NCBI RefSeq assembly: GCF_039962255.1
Contig: NZ_JAMPKY010000013.1
Location: forward strand, 1-64,000
Direction: 5' to 3'
DNA from: Leptolyngbya subtilissima AS-A7
GTDB taxonomy: Bacteria > Cyanobacteriota > Cyanobacteriia > Phormidesmidales > Phormidesmidaceae
DNA: 64,000 nt
Of the stretch, positions 4,337 through 63,363 are shown piece by piece. Position numbers and translations under genes: made by a program. The notes below the pieces were generated by a model. It was not told the origin of the DNA, did not search any database, and saw nothing but the letters and a program-made list of their open reading frames with translations. Position 1 is the first letter of the stretch. Every line of letters begins with the position of its first letter.

Positions 4337-5560
4337 GTGAGGTCAACGTTACCGAGCGAGTTGTTAATTTATCGATTTCAGGGGGAGGGGCTACAGCCCA
4401 AACGGTTGGCGCTGGATGGGGTGAATCGGGCGATCGCAGCCGATCTCATTCAGCTCTTTCAGCAGCAGGTGGGCCTCACCCAAGGCGACCTCAACCGCCA
4501 GCTGCAAGATTTAGAGGGCGAAGACACTAACTACCGCATCAAGCGGGGGCTAGCCCACATTCTGCGCAATAGCTTTGCCACGTTTGATGTGGTAAGCCCG
4601 CTAGAGCCAATTGAGCTGCGGCGGCGAGTGTTTGCCCTGTCCGCCCAATCAATTCCATCTCCCAAAGCGGCCGAAGCTCATTTGACAGCCCTTGGTCAGC
4701 AGCTTTCTGAAGAACTAGATCGGGAAGTATCAGTGCCTGACCTGCGCCAGGGGCTCTACGCCGATCGCCAAGACAACCACATTCTGATTGAGTTTGACTC
4801 CCCCACTCCCGATGCCCTGCTCCATCGCTATAACCTGTCGCAGACCCAGGGGGTGTTTTATAAGGCCAGCGATCTGGTGATGCACCTGTACCGCAATGAC
4901 CCCGGCGAGTACAAGCTCATGTTTCGTTACCTAAAGCTGTTTCGGCTGATGACCTACATCGAGGGCGACGCCGATCAGGGGTTTACGATCACCATCGACG
5001 GCCCCGCCAGCTTGTTTAAACCCAGCACGCGCTATGGAATCGATATTGCCAAGCTGATTCCCGCTATTCTCCACGTCAGTAAGTGGCGGCTGACGGCAAC
5101 CTTGCAAATGAAGGACAACTTTACTCAACAGGTAAAACCCCGCCAGTTTACCCTCGATAGCGACTGTGGTTTGGTTACCCACTATCCCCCTGGCAAAACC
5201 TACGACAGCATGATTGAGGAGTCGTTCGTCAGCCGCTGGCCGGCCAAAACCCCCTGGCGGCTGGAGCGGGAGGTGGATCTGGTACCCCTGCCCGGCAGCG
5301 TGATGATCCCCGACTTCCGACTGGTTCACCCCGACGGGCGCGAGTTTTTGCTAGAGATTGTTGGCTACTGGCGGCCTGAATACCTGCGTAAGAAATTTGC
5401 TCAGGTGCGCAAGTCGGGGCGCAGTAACCTAATTTTGGCGGTTTCAGAACGGCTCAACCTGGAGAATGCCGGGGTAGATATTGCCAACGTTCCAGCCCAG
5501 GTGGTGTGGTTTAAGACGAAACTTCAGCCCAAGGTGGTGCTGGAGGTGCTGGGAGACTGA
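4337..5560 (+). CDS. DUF790 (Bax1-like) nuclease family protein
   Basis: About 405 aa, of the DUF790 family. Archaeal Bax1 is a member: it partners the XPB helicase and cuts DNA. The C-terminal third contains a restriction-endonuclease-like motif, VMIPDFRLVHPDG followed by EFLLEIVGYW, so PD...ExV residues for metal binding are present at roughly 324-345. A DNA repair role is inferred. The only ATG/GTG/TTG start near the conserved N-terminus is GTG at 4337, but this codon lies inside the Shine-Dalgarno-like GGAGG (4333-4337). Family proteins begin M-L-P-x-x-L-L, and the matching codon here is ACG at 4346, eight bases after GGAGG. Translation may therefore start at ACG. No XPB-type helicase gene is adjacent; recG follows on the other strand. 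Confidence 0.75.
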   Translation: MRSTLPSELLIYRFQGEGLQPKRLALDGVNRAIAADLIQLFQQQVGLTQGDLNRQLQDLEGEDTNYRIKRGLAHILRNSFATFDVVSPLEPIELRRRVFALSAQSIPSPKAAEAHLTALGQQLSEELDREVSVPDLRQGLYADRQDNHILIEFDSPTPDALLHRYNLSQTQGVFYKASDLVMHLYRNDPGEYKLMFRYLKLFRLMTYIEGDADQGFTITIDGPASLFKPSTRYGIDIAKLIPAILHVSKWRLTATLQMKDNFTQQVKPRQFTLDSDCGLVTHYPPGKTYDSMIEESFVSRWPAKTPWRLEREVDLVPLPGSVMIPDFRLVHPDGREFLLEIVGYWRPEYLRKKFAQVRKSGRSNLILAVSERLNLENAGVDIANVPAQVVWFKTKLQPKVVLEVLGD

Positions 5561-13154: not shown

Positions 13155-13796
13155 ATGAATACGGTTTTAATTGTTGACGACGATCCTATATTGCAAACGG
13201 CATTGACCCGGCACTTACAGGCTCAGGGGTTTGAGGTGATGAGCGCGACCTCAGGCCAAGAGGCACTAGATTTGTTGTGCAACCAACCTGCGGACGTGGT
13301 GGTGTCGGACGTGGTGATGCCGGGCATGAACGGGTTCGAGTTTTGCCATCACCTGCGCTCTAGCCCCGCCGGAGAAATGGTGCCGTTTATCTTTCTCTCT
13401 GGCCTGGGAGAGTTGACTAACCGGGTGCAGGGTCACATGCTCGGGGCTGATGACTATTTAGTTAAGCCCTTCTCGGCGCAGGAGCTGATTGCCAAAGTGA
13501 AGGGAGCGATCGCGCGATCGCAGCGTCTCCACAGCACTCTAAAGCGCATGCTTGAACAGTCTGCCCTCCAGCCCAGCCCCCTACCCCTCACCCCGGCCGA
13601 AGAGCGGGTGTTTTGGGAGGTGGTTCAAGGCTTTACCAACAAACAGATCGGCGAGCACCTCTTTCTCAGCCCCCGCACGGTGCAAACCCATCTCAGCAAT
13701 ATGCTGGCCAAGCTCAATCTTGAGAACCGCGCGCAGATCGTGCGCTTTGCCTTTGAGCACGGGTATCGGATGCCGGAGGAGTTGGAAAAGGGGTGA
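13155..13796 (+). CDS. NarL/FixJ-type response regulator
   Basis: A 213-aa two-component response regulator. The receiver domain (about 1-120) has the acidic pocket DDD at 8-10, the phospho-acceptor D52 (VVVSDVVMPGMNG) and the conserved Lys in LVKPF. The C-terminal LuxR-type helix-turn-helix (about 143-208) reads LTPAEERVFWEVVQGFTNKQ and SPRTVQTHLSNMLAKL. It resembles the Rre1/Ycf29 group of cyanobacteria and red-algal plastids, though this placement is tentative. No histidine kinase gene is nearby, so it is an orphan. It is followed by a mirrored minisatellite block. Confidence 0.88.
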   Translation: MNTVLIVDDDPILQTALTRHLQAQGFEVMSATSGQEALDLLCNQPADVVVSDVVMPGMNGFEFCHHLRSSPAGEMVPFIFLSGLGELTNRVQGHMLGADDYLVKPFSAQELIAKVKGAIARSQRLHSTLKRMLEQSALQPSPLPLTPAEERVFWEVVQGFTNKQIGEHLFLSPRTVQTHLSNMLAKLNLENRAQIVRFAFEHGYRMPEELEKG

Positions 13797-13978
13797 GGGA
13801 GTGGATGGGTAGGAGGGTGGATGAGTGATGGGTACATGAGTGGATGAGACCCGACTGCAAATCCTGAACTACACCCAGCGTTTCCAACCCTTTGGGAAGC
13901 CACCAGGCAAAAAACATTTGCTCCTCACCCTCTACCCATCCACCCTCCTACCCATCCACCCATCCACTCCCCCACTTC
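13797..13978. repeat. Mirrored TGGATGGG / CCCATCCA minisatellite block
   Basis: The plus strand carries a G-rich run of GTGGATGGG-like units (about 13795-13850) and, after a 70-base unrelated centre, a C-rich run of CCCATCCACCC-like units (about 13920-13975). The arms are partly complementary, so the transcript could fold into a long imperfect hairpin. The same family recurs in at least seven other gaps of this window. It sits between the response regulator and gun4. Confidence 0.75.
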
Positions 13979-23635: not shown

Positions 23636-24295
23636 ATGAATCGATTGATTTTTTGGGGCGTTTGGCTTGGGTTTATTCTGTATGCATTTATACTTGCTCC
23701 TCCCAATCGCCCCGACACCGCTGAACTGATCTTAAAACTTTCCACAGGCGCGTGGGAGGGCATTAACCCTACCGTCATAGCCCTGTTTAACGCTATGGGA
23801 ATTTGGCCAATGGTCTACGCTGCGGTGGCTTTGGTAGACGGCCACGGACAAAAGCAGCGGGCCTGGCCCTTTGTGGTGGTGTCGTTTGCGGTGGGGGCTT
23901 TTGCGCTGCTGCCCTACTTAGCTCTGCGACAGCCTAACCCCAGCTTTAACGGCCCCAAGAGCGCTCTGCTGCGCCTGTTGGAATCTCGCTGGCTGGGAGC
24001 GGCCCTGGCAGCTGGGGCGATCGCCCTAGCCGCCTTTGCATTACTTAAAGGTGACTGGCCTGATTTTTGGCAGCAGTGGCAGACCAGCCGCTTCATCCAC
24101 GTGATGTCGCTGGACTTTGTTGCCCTGTGGCTGTTGTTTCCGGTGCTGCTGCGCGACGACATGGCCCGCCGGGGCATGAGTCAGCCCTGGGTGGTAGCGG
24201 CGGTGCTGGCCCTGCCGTTGATAGGCGCTTGTTTATATCTAGCGCTGAGGCCGGCTATTGAGGAGAGTCCGGTAGCAGAGGGCGTGGGAGCGTGA
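23636..24295 (+). CDS. Multi-pass membrane protein, function unknown
   Basis: A 219-aa integral membrane protein. Hydrophobic segments are visible at about residues 3-21, 47-66, 77-95, 117-136, 154-173 and 181-203, so five or six helices. The loop LRQPNPSFNGPKS (about 99-111) recalls a conserved motif in cyanobacterial and plastid DUF-type proteins, but I cannot name the family with confidence. No enzyme or transporter signature is seen. A mirrored minisatellite block follows the stop codon. Confidence 0.65.
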   Translation: MNRLIFWGVWLGFILYAFILAPPNRPDTAELILKLSTGAWEGINPTVIALFNAMGIWPMVYAAVALVDGHGQKQRAWPFVVVSFAVGAFALLPYLALRQPNPSFNGPKSALLRLLESRWLGAALAAGAIALAAFALLKGDWPDFWQQWQTSRFIHVMSLDFVALWLLFPVLLRDDMARRGMSQPWVVAAVLALPLIGACLYLALRPAIEESPVAEGVGA

Positions 24296-24418
24296 GGGGA
24301 GTGGGAGAGTAGCGGGTGGATGAGTGGATGGGTAAAGAGTAGATGGGGGGGATAAGGGAGATCAGAGTTGCTTCCCCACCTTCCTTACCTTTCTCATCCC
24401 CTTCTCTCCCTCATCCCC
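24296..24418. repeat. Mirrored G-rich / C-rich repeat block
   Basis: A purine-rich arm with GTGGATGAGTGGATGGG units (about 24290-24355) is followed by a pyrimidine-rich arm (CTTCCCCACC... about 24370-24418). It lies exactly between convergent genes and could fold as a shared 3' hairpin. Confidence 0.65.
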
Positions 24419-26755
24419 CTACGCTGTCATACTCTGCAACCGGCTCAGGGTGCGCTGCACGGAGGAGAGACCCTGGCGATCGCCTTGGGCCTCGAGATAG
24501 GCACTGGCTCGCTCCAGGTCGGCGATCGCCCTGGCCTGATCGCCCTGGCTCTGGTAGGCAGCGCTACGGTAGCAGTAGGGCAGCGCAATGGGGTCGCCGC
24601 AGGCAATGGCGTCGCTGTAGTCGCGCACCGCGCCTTTGAAGTCGCCCAGCTTGTGCAGGGCACTGCCCCGGTATACATAGGCCATAGGCAGGTGGGGCTT
24701 GAGAGTCACCGCTTGGGTAAAGTCAGCGATCGCTGCGGCGTAGCGGCGCTGCTCTAGGCGCAGCCAGCCCCGGTTGCAGTGGGGAGCAAACAGCTTGCCG
24801 TTTTGCAGAATCGCCTCACTGAGGTCAGCCTCGGCGGCCTCGACCTGGTTGAGTTCGAGCTGGGCCACCCCGCGGTTGTTGAGGGCAATGGCGTGGTCGG
24901 GCTGGAGGTTAATTACCTGGCTATAGTCGCTAATCGCCCCAGGTTGGTCGCGCAGGTCGTGGCGGGTGGTGCCTCGGTTAAAGAAGGCCACAGTGTCCCC
25001 AGGGGGAATGGCCGGGTCGTGGAAGCGCTGCATGAGGGCTTGGACGACAGCGGGTTCGGCGGTGCGCAGCTTGGCGTCTAGATCGGGGATGGCAGCGCTC
25101 TGGGTAGGCAGCGCCTTGAGGCTGACTACGGCGTAGGTGTTCCCCATGGCGTCAGAGGGGGCGCTGCTGCCGCTGTCGCAGACCAGATAGCTCTCGGCGG
25201 TGCCCATAATTCTGAACTTGAAGCGCTCGGGGTAGTTTTCTCGCAGGGGCAAGAGTTGATTGAGGGAGGCCTTGAGCAACTGTAGCTGGCTTGACTCGGT
25301 GCCCCAGCGCTGGCTGATGCGCCACGCCAGGCGGCCATCGTGCTGGTCGCCTCGGTGGCACCAGCCAATCTCGAGCTGGCCACCGCGATCGAGCAGCTGG
25401 CGAAATTGCTCTAGCAGGCCGTCGTCAATGGTGACGTAGCTCGCCCAGGGCCACACCAGCAGCACCCGCCGCGTGGCGGTTTTAAGGGCAGTCTCAAGAG
25501 CCTGGCGGCTGGCCATGGCTTGGGGTTCGACGGCGTTGGCCACGGGGAAGTCAATGATCCAGTCGGGCTGGGGTAAGGGCAGCGGTTTGGCTATGGCTAC
25601 GGGCTCTTGGCGCGAGGTTTTAAGCTCGGTTTCGGTCTGCTGCACCCGCCGGGCTAGCTGCATTAGGGCTTTGCGGTTGGCGGTGTCGTCGGGGGCGGTG
25701 ACCAGCTGGCTAGTGAACTGCTGCTGCCGTTCGGAGAGCGATCGCGTTACTCCCTCCAGCTGGGCCACCTGGGCCTTCACCTGTCCCAGGTATTGCGACA
25801 CCACCTGCTGCACCTGTTCCTGGGTGTGGCCAGCGGTTTCCTGGCGGCTGACCTGCTGCTGCAAATGCTGCACCTCAGCGGTCAGGCGCTCTAGCTCGGC
25901 GGTGCTGGGCGGTGTCGCCGGCAACCCGTTTACCGTGCCCACCGGAATTTTGGTGAGGGCTTGCTCTAGGCGGGTTTGCTGGCGAGTCAATTCTTTAACG
26001 TGATCCACTAGCCGACTAAATTCTGACTGGGGCACCAGGGCAGCCATGGCCTTGACCACCTCCCCCATTCCGGCCCGGTATTGGCCAGGGGCATTGGTCT
26101 GGGGAAACTCCTGCCAGCGGCGATCGATTTGCCCCAAGGCGTCTTGCAGGTTGGTGACTAGAATGCGGGTTTCTGAACGCAGGTTCTCAAGACTTACCCG
26201 CGTCTGCATCAGGTCGGTTTTGACTTGGGAGAGCTTGTTTTCAGCGGCCTCTACTCGAGGCGCGGTAGCCAGCCGCTGTATGTAGGTGTTGAGGTTTTCG
26301 AAGCTCACCTGGGCCGCAGCCGACTGCTCCTGGAGCTGGGTAATCTGCTGGTTGATGTCGGCTAGGTCAGGAACGGGCAGCGCCTCAAGTCGCTGGTCAA
26401 CGTGGGCTTTGAGGCCGTTGATTTGCTTAGCAAAGCGGATGAAGGAGTGGTTGTTGCGATCCATCACCGCCCGCTGAAAGTTGGTCAGCGCCTCGGGCGA
26501 AGGCATAGCCGTCACCTGTTTTGTCAGGTTGGTGAGGCGGTGCCCGGTCTGGCGGTGCTGGCGGGCGAGCTTTTCCTGGGCTTCTTCAAGCTGCTGCTCA
26601 ACGCGGGTGCGGTTGAGTAGCCCAACCGCTGCCAGCACCGTGAGCGGTGCCGAGGCCAGAGCAATGTTTTGGGCAGCAATCGACGCTACGGCACCGACGC
26701 CAGACCCTACAACCAGAGCGCGTTCGGCCCTTGTCAACCAATGATTATCGGCCAC
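24419..26755 (-). CDS. Large coiled-coil and TPR-repeat protein
   Basis: A 778-aa protein. Residues about 12-48 are hydrophobic and may form a membrane hairpin. A long Gln/Glu/Leu-rich coiled-coil follows (about 50-380). The central domain (about 405-560) begins with ALKTATRRVLLVWPWAS and contains LDRGGQLEIGWCHRGD, a pattern recalling phospholipase-D-like folds, but no HxK motif is visible. The C-terminus has about five TPR units, such as FNRGTTRHDLRDQPGAISDY and NNRGVAQLELNQVEAAEADL. It is probably a membrane-tethered scaffold. The domain order is seen in the sequence; function is unknown. Confidence 0.7.
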   Translation of the reverse strand: MADNHWLTRAERALVVGSGVGAVASIAAQNIALASAPLTVLAAVGLLNRTRVEQQLEEAQEKLARQHRQTGHRLTNLTKQVTAMPSPEALTNFQRAVMDRNNHSFIRFAKQINGLKAHVDQRLEALPVPDLADINQQITQLQEQSAAAQVSFENLNTYIQRLATAPRVEAAENKLSQVKTDLMQTRVSLENLRSETRILVTNLQDALGQIDRRWQEFPQTNAPGQYRAGMGEVVKAMAALVPQSEFSRLVDHVKELTRQQTRLEQALTKIPVGTVNGLPATPPSTAELERLTAEVQHLQQQVSRQETAGHTQEQVQQVVSQYLGQVKAQVAQLEGVTRSLSERQQQFTSQLVTAPDDTANRKALMQLARRVQQTETELKTSRQEPVAIAKPLPLPQPDWIIDFPVANAVEPQAMASRQALETALKTATRRVLLVWPWASYVTIDDGLLEQFRQLLDRGGQLEIGWCHRGDQHDGRLAWRISQRWGTESSQLQLLKASLNQLLPLRENYPERFKFRIMGTAESYLVCDSGSSAPSDAMGNTYAVVSLKALPTQSAAIPDLDAKLRTAEPAVVQALMQRFHDPAIPPGDTVAFFNRGTTRHDLRDQPGAISDYSQVINLQPDHAIALNNRGVAQLELNQVEAAEADLSEAILQNGKLFAPHCNRGWLRLEQRRYAAAIADFTQAVTLKPHLPMAYVYRGSALHKLGDFKGAVRDYSDAIACGDPIALPYCYRSAAYQSQGDQARAIADLERASAYLEAQGDRQGLSSVQRTLSRLQSMTA

Positions 26756-26913
26756 GTTGTTTCCCCTGATGACTAAAACCGCTAAGGCGTGGCGATGCCT
26801 GAGGGGGCGTCAGGGGGGCTTCATCGCTACTAATTTACTTTTCGGGAAGCGATCACAACGTCAGGATGTTTTTGTGAAAAGCTGGGGGAAGTGGGGGGAA
26901 ACGAACAAGCATT

Positions 26914-26929
26914 ATTGAATTTTATCAAT
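26914..26929. promoter_or_regulatory. LysR-type box 1 upstream of ndhF3
   Basis: ATTGA-N6-TCAAT inverted repeat. It has the same half-sites and spacing as box 2. LysR regulators NdhR/CcmR and CmpR control inducible CO2/bicarbonate uptake genes in cyanobacteria, and published sites for NdhR use TCAAT-type half-sites. Confidence 0.5.
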
Positions 26930-27037
26930 CAGGAACAAAAATCAAATAGCATTTAATCAATTTACCCCTTTCTTTTTGGGACAGGCATTGGCTAAACTCT
27001 ATTGAAAATAGCCTCAAGTCTATTCAGATAGCGATTT

Positions 27038-27055
27038 GATTGACAAAGATCAATC
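27038..27055. promoter_or_regulatory. LysR-type box 2 upstream of ndhF3
   Basis: Perfect GATTGA-N6-TCAATC inverted repeat, 93 bases before the ndhF3 start. It matches box 1 in half-site and spacing. An NdhR/CcmR-like site is inferred. Confidence 0.55.
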
Positions 27056-27147
27056 TTGATCTAAGCACTCAGTGCTTACGCTAAAACCGCCGCCAATCCC
27101 TGCCAGGTAATGCTTTCGCTGTCCTTTTGCCCGAGGATGCCTCGTCT

Positions 27148-29001
27148 ATGACTCCAATTATTGCCCAAACCAGCTGGCTGATTCCTCTATATCCCCTAAT
27201 GGGAGCGCTGCTGACTATTCCCTGGTCACCGGCCTTTATTCGTAGCACTGGGCCGCGCCCGGCAGGGTACATCAACATTGTGATGACGGCCCTTGCTCTG
27301 GTTCACAGCCTGCTGGCGTTCTTAGCCCTTTGGGGAAAGTCGTCGCCCCAGTTTTTCTTCGCCTCCTGGCTGGATGTGGCGGGACTAAATTTGGCCATTC
27401 CCCTAGAGGCCTCGCTGATTACCCTAGGGGCCTGTGTACTGATTACCACGCTGAATCTGCTGTCGCAAATTTACGCTGTGGGCTACCTAGAGATGGATTG
27501 GGGCTGGGGCCGCTTTTTCGCCATGATGGCGCTGTTTGAGGCAGGTATGTGCGCCCTGGTGCTATGCAACTCGCTGCTGTTTGCCTACATGCTGCTGGAG
27601 ATTTTGACCCTGGGCACCTACCTGCTGGTGGGCTTTTGGTACAACCAATCCCTAGTGGTGACCGGGGCGCGCGACGCATTTTTGACCAAGCGAGTCGGCG
27701 ACCTAATACTTCTGATGGCGGTGCTGGCCATCTATCCCCTCGCCCACACCTGGGACTTTCGAGAGCTGGCGGCCTGGGCTCAAACCGCAAATGTGGATCC
27801 TGGGTTGATCACGCTCATTGGTATTGGCTTGATTGCTGGCCCGATGAGCAAATGCGCCCAGTTCCCTCTGCACCTGTGGCTGGATGAAGCGATGGAAGGC
27901 CCGCTGCCCAGCACCATTCTGCGCAATTCGGTGGTGGTGACGACCGGCATCTGGGTGCTGGTGGAGATGGAGCCTGTGATTGCCCTGTCGTCGACGGCCT
28001 CGGCTTTTGCTATTGCGGTCGGGGCGGTGACGGCGATCGGCGCGACGCTGATCTCTGCGGCTCAAATTGACATTAAGCGGGTGCTTTCGTACCTCAGCAG
28101 TGCCTACATGGGGCTGATGTTTATCGCCCTCGGCGCCCACCAACCCGGTGCCGCCCTGCTGCTGGCCCTGATCTACGCCCTGGGCATGGCGGCTCTGGTC
28201 ATGGGCGCAGGCTCGATCATTATTAATATCACCACCCAAGACCTGACCCAAATGGGCGGATTGTGGGGCCGCCGCCCCGTGACCGCGATCGCCATGATTA
28301 CGGGTGCTGCTAGCCTAGTGGCCCTGCCTCCCCTCGGTGGGTTTTGGGCCATGCTCTCGCTGGTGTCTGGCCTCTGGCACAGCGATCGCGGTCTGTTGGT
28401 AGCAATCGTGCTGCTGGTGAACTGGCTGATGGCCTTTAGCCTAGCCCGGCTGCTGGGTCTGATCTTTGCGGGCAAGACCCAGCAGATGACGATGCGATCG
28501 CCCGAGCCGATCTGGTTCATTGTGCTGCCGCTGGCGATCGTCGCTGGTTTCGCCCTGCACCTGCCGTTGGTCATGGCCCAGTTCAACCTGCTGCCCACTT
28601 GGGCTGAGATTAGCCAAGACATGGCTCTGCTGCTCACCTGGTCCAGCATTCTTGGGGCGGCGATCGGCACCCTGCTCTACGTCAACCGTATGGTTGAAGA
28701 CCCAGGCAAGCTAATTCAAAAGCCCCTGCAAAACCTGCTGGCCTACGACTTTTACACCCCTAAGCTCTACCGCAACACCTTTGTGTTGGGTGTGGATGTG
28801 CTGTCGCGCATGACCGACTGGCTCGATCGCTACGTGGTCGATGGCCTAGTCAATGCCGTGGGCCTAGCCTCGCTCTTTAGCGGCGAAACCCTCAAATATG
28901 GCAACACTGGGCAGCTTCAGTTCTATGTGCTCACCATTGCCCTCGGCGTCGCCGGACTCGGGATTTTGATGAACTGGCAGGCGCTATCGGCGCTGTTTTA
29001 G
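27148..29001 (+). CDS. ndhF3: NDH-1MS subunit NdhF3 (inducible CO2 uptake)
   Basis: A 617-aa antiporter-like subunit of the NDH-1MS complex in the thylakoid membrane, which couples cyclic electron flow to CO2 hydration. It has about 14-16 hydrophobic helices. Diagnostic segments are GPMSKCAQFPLHLWLDEAME and PLPSTILRNS, the proton-channel region of NdhF/NuoL, and AQIDIKRVLSYLSSAYMG. The assignment to F3 rather than the housekeeping F1 or constitutive F4 rests on the downstream order ndhD-cupA-fasciclin. ATG at 27148 is preferred over a TTG at 27127. Two LysR boxes lie upstream. Confidence 0.9.
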   Translation: MTPIIAQTSWLIPLYPLMGALLTIPWSPAFIRSTGPRPAGYINIVMTALALVHSLLAFLALWGKSSPQFFFASWLDVAGLNLAIPLEASLITLGACVLITTLNLLSQIYAVGYLEMDWGWGRFFAMMALFEAGMCALVLCNSLLFAYMLLEILTLGTYLLVGFWYNQSLVVTGARDAFLTKRVGDLILLMAVLAIYPLAHTWDFRELAAWAQTANVDPGLITLIGIGLIAGPMSKCAQFPLHLWLDEAMEGPLPSTILRNSVVVTTGIWVLVEMEPVIALSSTASAFAIAVGAVTAIGATLISAAQIDIKRVLSYLSSAYMGLMFIALGAHQPGAALLLALIYALGMAALVMGAGSIIINITTQDLTQMGGLWGRRPVTAIAMITGAASLVALPPLGGFWAMLSLVSGLWHSDRGLLVAIVLLVNWLMAFSLARLLGLIFAGKTQQMTMRSPEPIWFIVLPLAIVAGFALHLPLVMAQFNLLPTWAEISQDMALLLTWSSILGAAIGTLLYVNRMVEDPGKLIQKPLQNLLAYDFYTPKLYRNTFVLGVDVLSRMTDWLDRYVVDGLVNAVGLASLFSGETLKYGNTGQLQFYVLTIALGVAGLGILMNWQALSALF

Positions 29002-29112
29002 ACAGCTGTGGAGTAGGGGAGTCAGGAAGTTGGGGAGTTAATCCCCCGTCACCCATCACCCCATCACTCCATCACCCCCTACCCATCCACCCCCTACCCA
29101 TCCACCCACACC
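29002..29112. repeat. C-rich tandem repeat before ndhD3
   Basis: From about 29046 the spacer is a run of CACCCATCACCCC and CCCCTACCCATCCAC units that ends at the bases just before the ndhD3 ATG. A short G-rich arm (GGAGTAGGGGAGT) lies at 29010-29040. No Shine-Dalgarno sequence is present before the ATG. Confidence 0.75.
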
Positions 29113-30672
29113 ATGCTCACCCCCCTCCTCCTAATCCCCCTCCTCGGCGCGATCGCTATCTCCCTTTGGCCGGGCCTCCCCAGCCAGCAGGCCCGCAATG
29201 GTGCCCTGATTGCCTCCGGGGCCGCCCTGCTGTGGACTCTTTATCTATTCACCCAGTTTGATCTGGCCTTTGGCGGCTTTCAGTTCCACGAATTTCTACC
29301 CTGGCTGCCCGCCCTAGGGCTCAACTACGAACTCAGTCTGGACGGCCTCTCGCTGCTGATGGTGGCGCTGAACAGCCTGATCACCTGGATCGCGATTTGG
29401 AGCAGTAACCCACAAATTGAGCGGCCTCGGCTCTTTTACAGTCTGATGCTGCTGGTGAGCAGCGGGGTGGCGGGGGCCTTTGTGGCTCAAAACCTGATGC
29501 TGTTCTTCTTGCTCTACGAAATCGAGCTGGTGCCCCTGTATCTGCTGATTGCCATCTGGGGCGGCGAGAAGAAAGCTTATGCGGCCACCAAGTTTTTGCT
29601 CTACACGGCGCTGTCTGGCGCGCTCATGTTGGCCGGGTTCCTCGGTACCGTCTGGCTCAGCGGCGCTAAAGACTTTACCTACTACGCGGTGATGGGCCAC
29701 GATCTGCCGATGGTGTGGCAGGGAGTGCTGCTAGGGCTGCTGCTGGTAGCCTTTGGCATCAAAATTCCCCTGGTGCCGTTTCACACTTGGCTGCCCGATA
29801 CCTATGTGTCGGCTTCGACTCCGGTGGCGATGATGCTGGGCGGGGTGCTGGCTAAGCTGGGCACCTACGGTCTATTTCGCTTTGGTCTGGGGCTGTTCCC
29901 CGATGCCTGGGCTCAGTTTTCGCCCTACTTGGCGGGGTGGGCAGCGGTGAGCGTGCTTTATGGAGCGGTGACGGCGATCGCCCAAAAAGACATCAAGCGC
30001 ATGGTGGCCTACAGCTCCATCGGCCACATGGGCTACGTGCTGTTGGGCGGCGCGGCGATGACCGACCTGGCACTAACCGGGGCTGTCAGCCAAATGGTTT
30101 CTCACGGCATTATTCTGGCTATTCTGTTTCACCTAGTCGGGGTGATTGAGACTAAAGTTGGCACCCGCGAACTGGACGTGCTGAACGGGCTGATGAACCC
30201 GGTGCGAGGGCTGCCCATGGTCAGCGCGCTACTGGTGCTGGGGGGCATGGCCAGCGCCGGCATCCCCGGACTGGTGGGGTTTGTGACGGAGTTTCTGGTG
30301 TTCCAAGGCAGCTATGCCGCCTATCCGGTGCAGACCCTGCTGGGGGTAATTGGCACGGGCCTGACGGCGGTCTACTTCGTGATCTTGCTCAACCGCACCT
30401 GCTTTGGTCGGCTAGACAATGCGATCGCCTACTTCCCCAAGGTCACCTTTTCTGAAAAACTGCCCGCCTATATTCTCGCTGGGCTAATTCTCTTCCTCGG
30501 CATTCAGCCCAACTGGCTAGTGAAGTGGGGCGAACCGACCGCCAGCCTAATGGTGTCTAACATCCCTATCTTCACCACTGAGGTCGTCGCCGATGAAGTA
30601 ATTCAGGAGATCGAGATGCAGCCCGATGGGGCGATCGCTCTCCCCATCGCCACCCTCCCCACCCTGCCCTGA
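29113..30672 (+). CDS. ndhD3: NDH-1MS subunit NdhD3
   Basis: A 519-aa antiporter-like membrane subunit of the same complex, with about 13-14 helices. Segments typical of NdhD/NuoM include FFLLYEIELVPLYLLIAIWG, with the conserved Glu, KIPLVPFHTWLPDTYVSA, and AQKDIKRMVAYSSIGHMGYV. It sits 111 bases after ndhF3 on the same strand, with repeat DNA between. The pairing with ndhF3 and cupA identifies the inducible, high-affinity CO2-uptake module. Confidence 0.92.
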   Translation: MLTPLLLIPLLGAIAISLWPGLPSQQARNGALIASGAALLWTLYLFTQFDLAFGGFQFHEFLPWLPALGLNYELSLDGLSLLMVALNSLITWIAIWSSNPQIERPRLFYSLMLLVSSGVAGAFVAQNLMLFFLLYEIELVPLYLLIAIWGGEKKAYAATKFLLYTALSGALMLAGFLGTVWLSGAKDFTYYAVMGHDLPMVWQGVLLGLLLVAFGIKIPLVPFHTWLPDTYVSASTPVAMMLGGVLAKLGTYGLFRFGLGLFPDAWAQFSPYLAGWAAVSVLYGAVTAIAQKDIKRMVAYSSIGHMGYVLLGGAAMTDLALTGAVSQMVSHGIILAILFHLVGVIETKVGTRELDVLNGLMNPVRGLPMVSALLVLGGMASAGIPGLVGFVTEFLVFQGSYAAYPVQTLLGVIGTGLTAVYFVILLNRTCFGRLDNAIAYFPKVTFSEKLPAYILAGLILFLGIQPNWLVKWGEPTASLMVSNIPIFTTEVVADEVIQEIEMQPDGAIALPIATLPTLP

Positions 30673-30680
30673 CCCCCAAC

Positions 30681-30822
30681 CCCGTAGGGTGCATTCGCGA
30701 AGCAATGCACCATCCCATAACGCGATATACCCAAGGTATAAATTTCCGCGATGGTGCATTACGGCCAAAGCAAAATGGTTCGGTAAAAGCGAGAGGGTCT
30801 ACGGCCTAATGCACCCTACGGG
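30681..30822. mobile_element. 142-bp MITE-like element with 15-bp terminal inverted repeats
   Basis: Perfect 15-bp termini (30681-30695 and 30808-30822, CCCGTAGGGTGCATT type) enclose an inner inverted repeat AATGCACCAT/ATGGTGCATT (30704-30713 and 30751-30760). There is no coding capacity. Related fragments occur at 19311-19342 and 44590-44600. Mobility is inferred from structure. It lies between ndhD3 and the antisense Nudix gene. Confidence 0.7.
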
Positions 30823-30835
30823 CGATCGGTGGGAC

Positions 30836-31264
30836 TTAGAGGAAATCCCAAATTTGTTCGGGAACTAGCCGGTGAGGGCCATCGCGGAGGTCGGCGGGCG
30901 ATCGCCAAACCGCCTTAAACTGCCGCTTCCCCTCCACCACATCTAGGCTCTCCTGCCCGTAGAGCGACTCATCCACAAACCGCCCATCGTAAACAAACAC
31001 AATCTCGTGTCCCGGCTCGCCCTCGTAGACAAAGATGTTTTCCACGATGCCCAACAGCTCCACCTCGGTAATGGCGGCCCCCAGCTCCTCCTTGATTTCG
31101 CGAATCGCCGCCTCGGCACTGGTTTCTCCGAAGTCAATGCCGCCCCCTAGAGGGCGGGCAAAGCCCCGCTCTTTCACCGAGTCGTAGGCTTCGTGGACAA
31201 GAATCTCGTCCCCCCGCCGCAGCAAACAGATCGAAATTGACCGAATTCGCGCTTTTTTACCCAT
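30836..31264 (-). CDS. Nudix hydrolase
   Basis: A 142-aa Nudix-superfamily pyrophosphohydrolase. The Nudix box reads GGGIDFGETSAEAAIREIKE then ELGA, matching Gx5Ex7REUxEExGU. The N-terminus ARIRSISICLLRRGDEILVH is the usual first strand. Substrate cannot be predicted. It is on the strand opposite to the ndhF3-ndhD3-cupA-cupS genes and sits between ndhD3 and cupA, so it interrupts the operon and may be an insertion accompanying the adjacent MITE. Confidence 0.92.
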   Translation of the reverse strand: MGKKARIRSISICLLRRGDEILVHEAYDSVKERGFARPLGGGIDFGETSAEAAIREIKEELGAAITEVELLGIVENIFVYEGEPGHEIVFVYDGRFVDESLYGQESLDVVEGKRQFKAVWRSPADLRDGPHRLVPEQIWDFL

Positions 31265-31378
31265 GCCAAAAGTTTTGAGTGTTGAGTTTTAAGTTCTTCC
31301 CGAAACAAATCTAATTCAAAACTCAAAACTAAACATTCACAACTCTCCCACCTATCCACCCCCTACCCATCCACCCCT
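31265..31378. repeat. TTTTGAG/CTCAAAA repeats and C-rich units before cupA
   Basis: The first part (31268-31335) carries heptamer-like TTTTGAGTGTTGAGTTTT against AATTCAAAACTCAAAAC, an imperfect inverted repeat. The last part (about 31345-31378) is CCTATCCACCCCCTACCCAT type and ends at the cupA ATG. It is a shared divergent upstream region for the Nudix and cupA genes. Confidence 0.65.
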
Positions 31379-32674
31379 ATGCCCACCCTCACCCAACCTC
31401 AAACCCTCATCCCTCCCTCCACCCACCCCCACGCCGACGTGATTCACCGGCTAGAGGCAGGCGGCTCGATGCTGCCCGACACGCCAGAAAACCTGATGCA
31501 GATCATCGGCATCTACAAGGCCTACGCCGTGCCGATGGATTTCTATTGGCGCGACCTACTCTATATCGCCGAGCGGGTGTTTTTGAACCCCATACCCGCC
31601 TTTAAGTATTTTTTGCCCCAGGAGTACCTTGACCTGCCCAACCACTACGCGGGCGACACCGCCGATCTGCGAATTTGGCGGGGCGAGGCCACGGCCCATC
31701 CAGAGCTGCTGGAATTTATGGAGAAGGGCGAGCTGAAGCGCAAGCTGCCTAAGCTGTTCCACCACCTGTGGCACGATCGCGTCAACATGGAGTTTGCCGA
31801 AGCCTGCATGCGGGCCATGCTCTGGCACCAAGATATGGGCGGCCGGTTCAACGACTATTTGTATACCGAGGAGTATAAGGGGGCGTGCGATCGCGCCATT
31901 CGCGCCTACTTCAAAGGCAACCCCGCCATGCTGGGGCTGCACAAACTTTTCCCCGAAATGTTCTACGAAAAGTGCCGCGAACTCTCCTACTACTCTAACC
32001 TAGGCCTGTTTTGGGAAGTGATGGCCCCGGTCTTTTTCGAGATGAGCGATATCTACGACGAAGGCGGCTTTTCAGGCGTGCCCGCCGCCATGGACTTTTT
32101 GGTCAACGGCATCTTTGCTGTGGCCGGTCGGCCCATTTACCACCACGTCTATGTGGGCGACGAATGCTTCGAGCTGATCCCCAAATCCTGCGGGTTCACC
32201 TGGCTGTATGAAGCGGCCTTACCCTACGTGGAAGCCGTGTTCTACCGCACCGCCCCCTTCCGAGGCACCAAATCCTACAACGCCCAAGCTGGTCAGGTGC
32301 CGCAGGATCAAAACGACTTTCACTACGGCATTCTCTACGCCGACGTCTTCCCTGTGGGCAGCGCGGGCATTCCCCCGACTCTGCTAATGCAGGACATGCT
32401 CCACTTCCTGCCGCCCTACCTGTTGGAGTATTACCAGCAGCACTGTCGCGGCGAGGACGACATGCTGATCCAGCTAGGGATCACCTTTCAGCGATCGATG
32501 TACAACGTCACCTCAGCGGTGATTCAGGCTCTGCGGGCGGCACTGCTCTACCCCCTCGATGACCAAAACCCTCGCCACCTAATGGCCAACCGCCAATTCT
32601 TCGAAGCCCAAATGGATCGCTTTGTGCGCCCGGAAGCCCGACTGCGCGATGTTCAGCGGCAGGACTACCGGTAG
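31379..32674 (+). CDS. cupA: CO2 hydration protein CupA (ChpY)
   Basis: A 431-aa subunit of NDH-1MS that catalyses energised CO2-to-bicarbonate conversion on the cytoplasmic face of the complex. The sequence is typical of the CupA/CupB (ChpY/ChpX) family, for example FFYxLxxIAERVFLNPIPxF-like YIAERVFLNPIPAFKYFLP, WHDRVNMEFAEACMRAMLWH, HHVYVGDECFELIPKSCGFT, and LPPTLL-like GIPPTLLMQDMLHFLP. The first 18 residues are Thr/Pro-rich. Assignment to CupA rather than CupB follows from the ndhF3/ndhD3 and fasciclin context. The gene is separated from ndhD3 by a MITE and an antisense Nudix gene. Confidence 0.92.
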   Translation: MPTLTQPQTLIPPSTHPHADVIHRLEAGGSMLPDTPENLMQIIGIYKAYAVPMDFYWRDLLYIAERVFLNPIPAFKYFLPQEYLDLPNHYAGDTADLRIWRGEATAHPELLEFMEKGELKRKLPKLFHHLWHDRVNMEFAEACMRAMLWHQDMGGRFNDYLYTEEYKGACDRAIRAYFKGNPAMLGLHKLFPEMFYEKCRELSYYSNLGLFWEVMAPVFFEMSDIYDEGGFSGVPAAMDFLVNGIFAVAGRPIYHHVYVGDECFELIPKSCGFTWLYEAALPYVEAVFYRTAPFRGTKSYNAQAGQVPQDQNDFHYGILYADVFPVGSAGIPPTLLMQDMLHFLPPYLLEYYQQHCRGEDDMLIQLGITFQRSMYNVTSAVIQALRAALLYPLDDQNPRHLMANRQFFEAQMDRFVRPEARLRDVQRQDYR

Positions 32675-32784
32675 ATGGGTAAATGGGTGGATGAGTAGAT
32701 GAGTCAGCGTCTTGATCACCCAGTCACCCATCCACCCCCCACCCATCCACCCCCTACCCATCCACCCCCTACCCATCCACTCCC
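32675..32784. repeat. 15-bp tandem repeats directly before cupS
   Basis: A G-rich arm (GTGGATGAGTAGATGAG, about 32676-32705) is followed by three to four copies of a CCCCCTACCCATCCA unit (about 32728-32782). The last copy touches the cupS ATG, so no Shine-Dalgarno sequence is available. Confidence 0.8.
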
Positions 32785-33195
32785 ATGCCTACCATCGTCG
32801 ATATCGCTGTCAATACCGAAGGCTTCTCCACCCTAGTCGCCGCCGTTCAGGCGGCGGGGTTGGTTGAAGCACTGCAAAGCCCCGGGCCGTTTACGGTCTT
32901 TGCGCCGAATGATGCCGCTTTTGCAAAGCTGCCTCCCGGCACGGTGCAAACCCTGGTGCAAAATCCACCCCAGCTGGGGCGTATCCTCAAGTTTCATGTG
33001 GTGGCGGGCAAATACACCAAGGATGAACTGATCAAACTCGGTACGGTGGGTTCCCTTGAAGGTGCGACCATACCCATTCATAACCTCTCTGATGATGAGG
33101 CGTTCGAGGTGAAAAATGCCACGGTGCTCGCTGCCGACATCGAAGCCGATAATGGCATCATTCACGTGCTGGATACTGTCATGTTGATGGGGTAA
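32785..33195 (+). CDS. cupS: Fasciclin-domain subunit CupS of NDH-1MS
   Basis: A 136-aa single FAS1 domain without signal peptide, as expected for CupS, the small subunit associated with CupA. The FAS1 H1 and H2 regions are visible: [20 protein letters not shown] and the C-terminal [14 protein letters not shown]. Order ndhF3-ndhD3-cupA-cupS equals that of Synechocystis sll1732-sll1735, which supports the name. Many other FAS1 proteins are secreted; this one appears cytoplasmic. Confidence 0.88.
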
Positions 33196-33340
33196 ACCTT
33201 GGGCTGAGGAAGCGATCGCGGTCTCTTTGTCTAGCTAGATTGAGTGCGTTCTTGCCTGAACTGCATCACTGGGATAGGTATCCTTGGTATAGAGGGTGAC
33301 ATTCTCTGTGAAACTAGCGATCGCATAACTGGCCCCAACA

Positions 33341-34195
33341 ATGCCCCTAACCCGAAGTCGATATGTGACGGCCCTGATTGAGGGGTTGTCTAGTTTGGGA
33401 CTGCTCGTCTTGCTCTCTGGTTGCTCGGCTTTGCCTGAGATAGGGGCTGTTGGTGCCCAACCTAGAGAGCAAGAGATTGCCGAGGCTTCAACCCGTGAGC
33501 AAGATTCTTTAGCAGTCGTCACTGATCAAGCTGCAAACCAAGCTGCTGTTAAAACCTTACCCACTGCAACCGTAGTGTCTGTGGGCGACGGCGATACGCT
33601 GCGTGTGCAGGGGCAGGATGGCCCAATCACCGTTCGTGTGGCCTGTGTGGATGCGCCCGAGAGTAACCAGGCCTTTGGCCCCGAGGCAACGCTGCGGCTG
33701 CGGCAGTTGCTCTCGACTGGGCAGCCGGTGGAAGTGCGGGCGATCGAGCGCGATCGCTACGGCAGAACCGTGGCTGAAATCTACAGCGGCGGCCAATCGG
33801 TTGGCCTACAGCTGGTGGGTGAAGGCTACGCCGTCGTTTACGAACAGTACATTTCTGGCTGCGCTGCCACCGCTGACGACTACCGCCAGGCCGAATCTGC
33901 GGCCCGCAACGCTCGCCGCAACTTTTGGAGCCAGCCCAACCCCACCATGCCCTGGGATTTTCGTCGGGGCGGGACATCCCCCACCCCAACGGATCCACCA
34001 CCGGCTGTTGTGCCAGCTCCCGTTAACCCGCCTTCAGCGACTCCGACCAATTTGCCCGCCTGTGTGTCTGGCGATTGCGACTGTGGCGACTTTGCCACCT
34101 GGGAACAAGCTCAGGCTGTGCTTAACGCCACCCCTGGTGACCCTCACCGTCTCGATGGCGATAGCGACGGTGTTGCCTGCGAAAGCTTGCGCTAA
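33341..34195 (+). CDS. Staphylococcal-nuclease-like lipoprotein with excalibur domain
   Basis: A 284-aa predicted lipoprotein nuclease. The signal peptide ends in a lipobox LLSGC with lipidated C28. The thermonuclease domain (about 68-205) has [27 protein letters not shown], and [13 protein letters not shown], keeping the Asp, Arg and Glu positions of the active site. A Pro/Thr-rich linker leads to a C-terminal excalibur calcium-binding motif ([12 protein letters not shown]). It probably acts outside the plasma membrane on nucleic acid. It is 146 bases after cupS on the same strand. Confidence 0.9.
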
Positions 34196-41360: not shown

Positions 41361-41416
41361 GGGAGTGGACAGTGGATGGGTAGGCGGGTGGATGGGTGGG
41401 TGAGTGGGCGGGTAGT
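41361..41416. repeat. Short TGGATGGG repeat block
   Basis: Seven or so imperfect units of GGATGGGTAGGCGGGTGGATGGG type between convergent genes. It is a G-rich arm only; no C-rich partner follows. Confidence 0.7.
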
Positions 41417-61841: not shown

Positions 61842-62013
61842 GGGGAAGGGGTGGATAGGTGGATGAGTGGGAGGGTGGGGGAGTAGGCGAGTGGGAGGGT
61901 GGGAGGGTGGATGAGTGGGGAGTGTTGGGTTATTGGATGTTGGGTATCAGGTATCAGGTATTGGGAAAAAGCAACTACCCATCCACCCGCCTACCCTCCC
62001 ACCCCCTACCCGT
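61842..62013. repeat. Mirrored TGGATGAG / CCCATCCACC repeat block
   Basis: A G-rich arm (GGTGGATGAGTGGGAGGGTGG units, 61850-61925) and a C-rich arm (CTACCCATCCACCCGCCTAC units, 61975-62015) flank a central GGGTATCAGGTATCAGGTATTGGG stretch. It lies between binding-protein and permease genes of one operon. Confidence 0.75.
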
Positions 62014-63363
62014 CTACTCGATATAGCCGGTATGACGCATGAACCGTTCAGCGACGGTTTGCGACTGGGCGATCGCTTGGTCAACCGAGACCTGATCAGC
62101 TAGGGCTGAGGCCATGCGCTGGCCGACTTGGGTGCCGATTGCCTGAAACTCAGGGATATCGACGTACTGCACGCCTTTGTAGGGGGTGGGCAGTGGGGAT
62201 GGGTTGGTGATATCAGCTGCCTGGATGGAATCCAGCACGATTTTTGCAAAGGGGGCGGCTGCTTGATAGTCAGGGTTCTCGTAGGTGGAGGTGCGGGTGC
62301 CGGGGGGTACTGAGACCCAGCCGTATTCGTCCGCTACCAGCTGCACGTACTCCTTGGAGGTGGCCCAGGCGACGAAGCGCTCGGCGGCCTCGGGCGACTG
62401 GGATGTGGCTGGAATTGCTAGCGCCCAAGACCACAACCAGTTAGAGCCGTTGGGGTAAGACTCGACTGGGGCGCGGGCAAAGCCGAGGCGATCGGCCACC
62501 TGCGACTGCTCAGGGTTCGAGAGCAGCCCGGCAGCGACGGTGGCATCGATCCACATGCCGCACTTGCCGGTGGAGAACAGGGCCAAGTTTTCGTTAAAGC
62601 CGTTGGAACTGGCTCCGGGCGGCCCGTACTGGTTCATCACATCAACGTAATAATTGACGGCGTTTTGCCACTCGGGGCTGTCGATGGTGGGCTGCCAGTC
62701 CATGTCGAACCAGCGGCCGCCGAAGGTGTTGACCAGGGTGGTGAGAAAGGCCATATTCTCGCCCCAGCCCGGCTTGCCCCGCAGGCAAATGCCGTAGACG
62801 CCGTTGGTTGGGTCGTGCACCTGGCTGGCCCACTCGCCCACCTGGGCATAGGTGGGGTTGGGGGGCACCGTAATGCCCGCCTTGTCAAACAGGTCGGTGC
62901 GGTAGTAAAGCATCGAGCTTTCGCCGTAGAAGGGCACCGCATAGAGGTTGTCTTCGTAGGAAAGCCCGGTGCGAATCGGGTCGATCAGGTCGTCAACGTC
63001 GTACTCGGCGGGCAGCCCGTCGAGCGATCGCAGCCAGCCCCGCCTGGCCCAGATTGGCGTTTCGTAGGACCCAATCGTCAATACATCGAACTGACCGCCC
63101 TGGCTGGCCACATCGGTGGTGGTGCGCTGGCGCAGAATGTTTTCCTCTAGCACCACCCAGCGCAGCTCGATATCGGGGTTGTCGGCTTCGAAATGGCTCG
63201 ACAGGTCTTGCATCACCACCATGTCGCCGTTGTTGACGGTGGCGATGGTTAGACGAGTGCGGTCCCCGGCCTGGGGGCCTGCTGAACAGGCATTGACCAG
63301 CTGCACCAGCAGCAGGCCAATGAGGAATGCTGCCAGCATTCGGGCTCGGCGAAATAAGCGCAT
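62014..63363 (-). CDS. Sugar/polyol-binding lipoprotein of an ABC importer
   Basis: A 449-aa extracellular solute-binding protein, family 1. The signal peptide ends at C26 (LVNAC), so it is lipid-anchored at the outer face of the plasma membrane. Segments ATDVASQGGQFDVLTIGSYE, YAVPFYGESSMLYYRTDLFD, and LFSTGKCGMWIDATVAAGLL are typical of CUT1 binding proteins for mannitol/sorbitol (SmoE/MtlE). It is the first gene of the importer operon, divergent from an SDR gene across 166 bases. Confidence 0.9.
   Translation of the reverse strand: MRLFRRARMLAAFLIGLLLVQLVNACSAGPQAGDRTRLTIATVNNGDMVVMQDLSSHFEADNPDIELRWVVLEENILRQRTTTDVASQGGQFDVLTIGSYETPIWARRGWLRSLDGLPAEYDVDDLIDPIRTGLSYEDNLYAVPFYGESSMLYYRTDLFDKAGITVPPNPTYAQVGEWASQVHDPTNGVYGICLRGKPGWGENMAFLTTLVNTFGGRWFDMDWQPTIDSPEWQNAVNYYVDVMNQYGPPGASSNGFNENLALFSTGKCGMWIDATVAAGLLSNPEQSQVADRLGFARAPVESYPNGSNWLWSWALAIPATSQSPEAAERFVAWATSKEYVQLVADEYGWVSVPPGTRTSTYENPDYQAAAPFAKIVLDSIQAADITNPSPLPTPYKGVQYVDIPEFQAIGTQVGQRMASALADQVSVDQAIAQSQTVAERFMRHTGYIE

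Follow-up and report, generated by a model that had tools for sequence, protein, structure and literature searches.

When tandem repeats run up to the start codons of several genes of one pathway, do they regulate that pathway, or do they belong to something that the genome does everywhere? The question is raised by a 64,000-nucleotide stretch of Leptolyngbya subtilissima AS-A7 (contig NZ_JAMPKY010000013.1, positions 1 to 64,000; hereafter the window), in which C-rich tandem arrays precede ndhD3, cupA and cupS, genes of the CO2-uptake complex. A preliminary description of this DNA had proposed that the arrays run to the ATG, replace any Shine-Dalgarno (SD) sequence and tune translation of the complex. 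Our analysis confirms that observation in part and supports its interpretation in part. The arrays belong to a dispersed set of repeats that share a spacer context and a polarity, turn over between species and give leaders with a predicted lack of both structure and spurious starts. We favour, with moderate confidence, a reading in which these fast-evolving, iterated and often inverted repeats serve as a tolerated runway to the start codon and not as a CO2-specific regulator, their polarity probably being kept by translational silence.

Dispersal, polarity and turnover of the arrays

The basic unit is approximately ACYCNYCY, 7-8 nt long and often doubled to 15 nt (ACCCATCCACCCCCT type; also written ACCCATCC-ACCCCCT). 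Arrays of such units do stand before all three genes (Table 1), and an SD-like 4-mer is absent in front of each, that of cupA having been judged by reading. Contact with the ATG holds for cupS only, as the arrays of ndhD3 and cupA stop 5 nt and 2 nt short of it. The placement had been called non-random, and CCCATCCACC, allowing one mismatch, is indeed found 36 times in the window where 6.2 would be expected, a count that 0 of 100 shuffles reach, but it is not peculiar to these spacers. The window has four further sites with such units (Table 1).

Across the whole genome, a search with the 25-nt dimer that allows up to two mismatches gives 36 matches, some of them overlapping within one array, and 0 in the control. 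Our survey sample covers 1.264 Mb of the 5.66-Mb genome (the window and 60 stretches of 20 kb at even spacing), with genes called by a home-made open reading frame (ORF) caller and starts that are approximate. A strict octamer search, defined by a two-unit pattern, finds 74 arrays in this sample. Intergenic sequence is over-represented among them, with 66 of the 74 in spacers that make up 282,540 of the 1,264,000 bases. Arrays occur in 50 of 492 co-directional spacers (about 10%), in 12 of 142 convergent ones and in 3 of 174 divergent ones. The reversed-sequence control yields 32 arrays and the pattern is therefore only moderately specific; over the first 1.2 Mb the corresponding numbers are 63 arrays, 25 in reversed sequence and 1 in one shuffle. 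G-less C-rich leaders precede genes for acetyl-CoA acyltransferase, the pyruvate dehydrogenase beta subunit, ABC transporter ATPases, a response regulator and uracil phosphoribosyltransferase, among others. The preliminary description had named an equal frequency of repeats before random genes as evidence against its proposal, and within this genome that is largely what is seen. The dimer recurs in 25 of 57 genomes of the family and in 17 of 20 of the genus, with the window's own counted. Octamer arrays were also noticed within called genes at two loci (L061, about 4534-4624, and L082, 3739-3770), which may be miscalled spacers or coding repeats.

Among spacers with only one arm detected, the C-array lies in the 3' half in 32 and in the 5' half in 17, and the G-array in the 5' half in 25 and in the 3' half in 3. 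In co-directional spacers, 18 of 25 G-arrays start no more than 2 nt from the stop codon (0-2 nt), and 19 of 34 C-arrays come to within 10 nt of the start. Polarity was also assessed by family-blind tests, which are independent of the strict octamer pattern. Near starts (n=435), runs of at least 30 nt are G-less in 22 cases and C-less in 0, compared with 3 and 0 after shuffling; near stops (n=435), 20 are C-less and 4 G-less, compared with 1 and 3. Convergent ends show 13 C-less against 1 G-less run among 232, and where both arms pass a 20-nt threshold the expected orientation is found in 7 spacers and the reversed one in 0. Tandem arrays of any sequence precede 8 of 796 starts, 7 being G-poor and 1 C-poor, and follow 10 of 681 stops, 9 being C-poor and 1 G-poor. 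In the congener G054, G-less runs outnumber C-less ones 10 to 0 before 155 starts, and C-less runs outnumber G-less ones 5 to 1 after stops. Six distant cyanobacterial genomes carry other, unrelated repeats, many of them AT-rich (Microseira, Planktothricoides, an Oscillatoriales metagenome-assembled genome (MAG), two UBA MAGs and Roseofilum; cup genes included in the count). Their arrays before starts are G-poor in 12 cases, C-poor in 3 and neither or both in 5, while those after stops are C-poor in 18, G-poor in 0 and neither or both in 10.

The host genome belongs to the Nodosilinea clade, and the closest named CupA loci among the matches listed are those of Nodosilinea sp. FACHB-131 and Leptolyngbya sp. 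FACHB-60, at 99%. Orthologous cup spacers have turned over between species, and the repeat sequence is therefore not conserved: relatives hold CCACCCATC units, TTTTGAG/CTCAAAA units, GGAAGGTGA/CCCCATCT units or a plain hairpin. The cupS units have been homogenised differently, as CCCCCT in this genome (G000), as CCCCTC in G031 and as CCCTGTT in G035. CupS of G031 is 100% identical to that of this genome, yet the cupS repeat units differ. The comparison of related strains that the preliminary description had suggested thus finds array sequence replaced between close relatives. In an Oscillatoriales MAG (L186, cupA start at locus position about 392) a CAACAAA/CAACCAT array reaches the cupA ATG and seems to enter the first codons (AACCAACAACCATC).

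Start regions and adjoining codons

SD-like 4-mers precede 195 of 651 ATG genes (61 after shuffling), but 0 of the 15 genes that have an array within 15 nt. Predicted minimum free energy (MFE) over positions -40 to +40 has a median of -3.4 kcal/mol for the 31 G-less C-rich leaders against -15.2 for 642 others; in G054 the medians are -3.8 for 14 G-less leaders against -16.5 for 193 others. If the 31 leaders are reversed, their median predicted MFE becomes -25.1 instead of -3.4. Each 60-nt leader holds 0.45 NTG codons as found and 5.52 when reversed, and those of other genes hold 2.44. The three cup-locus arrays had been described as pyrimidine-rich and unstructured unless paired with a G-rich copy. 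They are pyrimidine-rich, and local folding is predicted to be slight (MFE -0.4 kcal/mol for ndhD3, 0.0 for cupA and -5.8 for cupS); a G-rich partner arm exists for cupS, where 32670-32689 is 85% complementary to 32717-32736, but none for the cupA array. When the whole spacer is folded, the mean unpaired probability is 0.49 for cupS, 0.82 for ndhD3 and 0.90 for cupA. Since SD sequences are absent and predicted folding is minimal, the array-led starts have the features by which SD-independent, open-AUG initiation is recognised, and as modelled they fit that known route.

Misassigned starts might have produced the apparent contact between arrays and start codons. We therefore scanned 28 of the 31 genes with G-less leaders together with the cup genes; 12 starts and that of ndhD3 were judged to be supported by N-terminal NCBIfam alignment, and those of cupA and cupS by orthologues. 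This explanation was set aside, as 15 of the 31 starts are judged supported and the other 16 give the same trend.

The compositional skew of the arrays spills into the adjoining genes. At synonymous positions of codons 2-11, genes with G-less leaders use G at 0.63 and C at 1.27 times expectation, other genes at 0.91 and 0.94; the 15 genes whose starts are judged verified give 0.60 and 1.33. G054 behaves alike, with 0.68 and 1.17 against 0.87 and 0.92 in its other genes. Ahead of G-rich tails (46 genes) the effect is mirrored in the final ten codons, with G at 1.19 and C at 0.75, where 673 other genes have 0.99 and 0.94, and 10 genes with C-rich tails of the wrong polarity spill as well (G 0.76, C 1.21). 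A skew that reaches about ten codons into the genes on either side speaks for a process acting on the DNA and not for selection on initiation alone. Selection on early codons for openness had been favoured at the outset, given the G-poor, C-rich codons 2-11 and a coding sequence that is less folded with its own leader than a swapped one in 17 of 18 cases. It was cut back because synonymous recoding affects folding about equally often in genes with G-less leaders (15 of 18) and in other genes (95 of 120), and on account of the mirror effect before stops and the spill from wrong-polarity tails. At one further locus, the first codons of a biuret-amidohydrolase-like gene (L046:1420-2103, minus strand; MPLPAQPYPYPLPTT) resemble a C-rich array, as if an array had entered the gene.

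The cup locus and the competing explanations

Table 1. Positions of arrays, genes and neighbouring features in the window
Feature	Position	Strand	Remarks
G-arm and C-arm	13796-13973		G-arm begins at 13796, right at a stop; C-arm ends at 13973
G-rich arm at a stop	24295-24333	-	stop of gene 23636-24295; convergent spacer
G-rich, C-poor stretch after ndhF3 stop	29010-29041	+	GTGGAGTAGGGGAGTCAGGAAGTTGGGGAGTT; read directly; possible weak partner arm
C-rich tandem array before ndhD3	29044-29107	+	8-nt, then 15-nt units; ATG at 29113
ndhD3	29113-30672	+	NADH-quinone oxidoreductase subunit M family; NF005611 783.6 bits, cut-off 764
Nudix-like hydrolase gene	30836-31264	-	antisense; lies between ndhD3 and cupA; Nudix matches weak, none reaching its cut-off
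TTTTGAG / CTCAAAA inverted repeat	31275-31333	+	second repeat family, 5' of cupA array; arms 31275-31295 and 31313-31333, 81% complementary
C-rich tandem array before cupA	31347-31376	+	two 15-nt units; ATG at 31379
cupA	31379-32674	+	CO2 hydration protein, ChpX/Y family; TIGR01964 760.7 bits, cut-off 293.7
C-less G-rich arm	32670-32704	+	includes cupA stop codon TAG
G-poor C-rich arm before cupS	32717-32784	+	four 15-nt units at 32725-32784; abuts ATG at 32785 (0 nt)
cupS	32785-33195	+	name taken from the preliminary description; start conserved in relatives
Array between convergent stops	41374-41413	-	stops at 41360 and 41417
Paired arms	61861-62015		flanked by two minus-strand genes; arms 61861-61923 and 61977-62015 pair at best to 88% over 26 nt

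The proposal of CO2-specific tuning supposed a single operon. This setting is doubtful because an antisense Nudix-like gene parts ndhD3 from cupA. Of 20 relatives fetched, 15 show both ndhD3 and cupA in the stretch, and 13 of these have the Nudix-like gene in the same place; it was not found in G039 and G007. The profile scan gave no NCBIfam match for cupS. An inverted repeat of at least 12 nt was looked for in the ndhF3-ndhD3 spacer and none was found, despite the G-rich stretch after the stop. Just 3' of ndhD3, at 30681-30822, lies a perfect 15-nt inverted repeat (CCCGTAGGGTGCATT / AATGCACCCTACGGG, 112 nt apart). An Rfam scan of 26700-33400 returned nothing at gathering score; four miRNA models scored far below it, and those on the cupS inverted repeat (32666-32769, minus strand) are taken as chance matches to a hairpin.

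Are cup leaders nevertheless favoured places for arrays? In named cyanobacterial cup loci, tandem arrays that score 13 or more within the final 60 nt of the leader precede ndhD3 in 10 of 43, cupA in 17 of 73 and cupS in 15 of 53 cases, 42 of 169 in total; they come from several unrelated repeat families, and 37 are G-poor and 0 C-poor. Controls gave 0 of 1095 for inner cupA windows and 0.5% for shuffled leaders. These loci are the best 80 of 577 CupA matches, and the sample therefore leans to Nodosilinea-like genomes. Set against 8 of 796 other leaders in this genome, the cup locus looked like a decisive hotspot. That candidate was reduced to a suggestion by six repeat-rich genomes, in which 16 of 154 other leaders carry arrays, one of them before cupB (Fisher p 0.0008 for cup leaders against these, with spacer context unmatched and genomes related), and by cupB itself, whose leaders carry arrays in 4 of 9 readable cases (of 14). 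The six genomes and the cupB set had been picked for having arrays in cup leaders. Enrichment of arrays in cup leaders is thus suggestive. In this genome, at least three array-bearing spacers among four consecutive ones occur 5 times against a permuted mean of 1.13, a value reached in 15 of 1000 permutations with the window itself included, whereas adjacent pairs show no enrichment (7, with a permuted mean of 4.7, reached in 171 of 1000). Runs of array-bearing spacers appear in two other stretches of the sample besides the window.

The tuning hypothesis, in which the arrays would set the NdhD3:CupA:CupS ratio in response to CO2, draws on this enrichment, on the clusters and on the presence of arrays before all three genes alike. 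The baseline pools all spacer contexts, though, while arrays favour co-directional ones; unrelated genes have G-less C-rich leaders too, and the array sequence is replaced between species. CO2-specific tuning is unproven, because cupB leaders also carry arrays, and we give it very little credence. An intercistronic hairpin is a somewhat better but still unlikely account: the arms would pair in the mRNA after the stop and stabilise or terminate the upstream message, or couple translation, in that a ribosome finishing cupA would melt the G-arm and free the cupS leader. In keeping with it, the G-array starts at the stop codon, and the cupA-cupS spacer has z below -3 in 13 of 17 genomes against mononucleotide shuffles and in 11 of 17 against dinucleotide shuffles despite differing sequence, although relatives are non-independent samples. 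The ndhF3-ndhD3 spacer reaches this value in only 7 of 15 and 3 of 15 (dinucleotide z -0.93 in this genome), the cupA array lacks a G-rich partner, and both arms lie in the expected halves in only 8 of 50 co-directional array spacers with the pattern used. Against mononucleotide shuffles, 47 of 271 co-directional spacers of this genome have z below -3, array spacers being modestly more folded (10 of 34 against 37 of 237). The genome has no Rho match above the family cut-off and two weak ones below it; the hairpin reading gains from this, and the idea that the C-rich leaders are Rho sites was dropped. The cupA-cupS spacer itself (32675-32784; L121-L140), with repeat arms or plain palindromes, is a possible attenuator, terminator or stabiliser. 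A G-rich repeat or G-quadruplex (G4) reading rests on a placement rule equal to that of Rehm 2015 (PMC4692102) and on the more than four GGG runs in the complement of the cupS array. The same polarity occurs in AT-rich families (ACCAATT, CAACAAA) in which neither strand has a GGG run, so the rule needs no quadruplex-forming sequence, and Rehm 2015 reports that a role in gene regulation could not be identified; we hold this reading to be improbable.

In the reading that we favour, a tolerated runway, repeats fill co-directional and convergent spacers edge to edge, with one persisting polarity: a C-less G-rich arm from the upstream stop and a G-less C-rich arm to the downstream start. Slippage or hairpin-templated repair, acting on the DNA, may create and homogenise an array and would also skew about ten flanking codons. 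The C-rich strand would be silent for initiation, having few NTG codons, no SD and no structure, and polarity would survive for that reason; a G-rich strand before an ATG would bring false starts and strong folds. Ribosomes may then initiate on array-led genes by an SD-independent, open-AUG route. Several results weigh against this account. The strict octamer pattern is weakly specific, with reversed to real counts of 32/74 here, 26/28 in G054 and 2/9 in the congener G039, a genome without the dimer and nearly without polarity (at 150 starts 1 G-less and 0 C-less, at stops 0 and 0). Ten genes have strongly C-rich tails and 3 strongly G-rich leaders, and an SD-like 4-mer is still present in 3 of the 31 G-less leaders. 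Low folding is partly automatic given G-lessness, and genes with and without SD have similar local MFE here (-15.1 and -15.3), unlike the trend of Scharff 2011 (PMC3121790). The cupS AUG may not be open, because the whole-spacer fold pairs the C-arm with the G-arm. Polarity after stops is also found in convergent spacers; this would follow from a polarity inherent in the palindromic unit, but no constraint from start codons can explain it.

This last point leads to a purely neutral alternative, in which palindromic units with an intrinsic G-first polarity spread and slip with no translational meaning. The homogenised units and the codon skew at both gene ends, also next to wrong-polarity tails, agree with it, and exclusion by promoters could account for the scarcity of arrays in divergent spacers. 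Single-arm spacers nevertheless obey the polarity (the C and G counts given above), and reversed leaders would hold 12 times more start codons, so that selection should act if such leaders arise. We regard the neutral alternative as a serious contender but rather doubtful; it overlaps the runway reading, and our probabilities for the two are not exclusive. More speculative, and unlikely in our estimate, is a sequence-independent spacer grammar of cyanobacteria, under which the repeat of any lineage would be kept as a G-less runway to starts and a C-less run-off from stops, giving open, false-start-free initiation without SD, and operons like ndhF3-ndhD3-cupA-cupS would be refilled repeatedly with the same polarity.

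Relation to known repeats and initiation routes

Cyanobacterial spacers are known for short repeats, the STRR heptamers and small dispersed repeats, to which the present arrays are likened by kind and not sequence by sequence. For the ACYCNYCY-type unit we found no description in the open-access literature, subscription journals lying outside that search. A practical caution follows from the cup locus: repeats found next to the genes of a pathway under study are not necessarily its regulators.

The closest known kind is the G-rich intergenic repeats of Xanthomonas and Nostoc. Rehm 2015 describes GGGNATC and GGGGA(C/T)T repeats in two xanthomonads and Nostoc PCC 7120 together with a placement rule. 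Like ours, these repeats are dispersed, in tandem and mostly intergenic, lie between aligned ORFs and are under-represented between divergent ones; inverted pairs occur, if few in Nostoc, and within 50 bp the G strand is non-coding before starts and coding after stops. The family described here differs from these heptamers in its unit (8/15 nt, ACYCNYCY), in arrays that often meet start or stop codons to the base, and in a polarity that extends to GGG-less families.

Contact with start codons is shared with the TAACTGA repeats of marine Beggiatoaceae, for which MacGregor 2015 (PMC4679880) reports arrays that touch start codons. As here, those arrays end within nucleotides of starts, mostly without SD and before genes of all functions. 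The TAACTGA unit, unlike ours, contains G, and only 12 of 170 sets point to a stop codon. MacGregor 2015 suggests a repeat-binding regulator, whereas the array sequence here turns over freely.

As to initiation, Scharff 2011 describes an SD-independent route through local absence of structure, cyanobacteria included. The array-led starts resemble this case in lacking SD and in their minimal predicted folding around the AUG; that account is general and not repeat-based, while openness here would come from C-rich G-less arrays. Should the polarity rule prove widespread, it would offer a testable account of open start codons in SD-less genes of GC-rich cyanobacteria, and the placement of G4-type heptamers and of some start-codon-touching repeats could be explained without quadruplexes or repeat-binding proteins.

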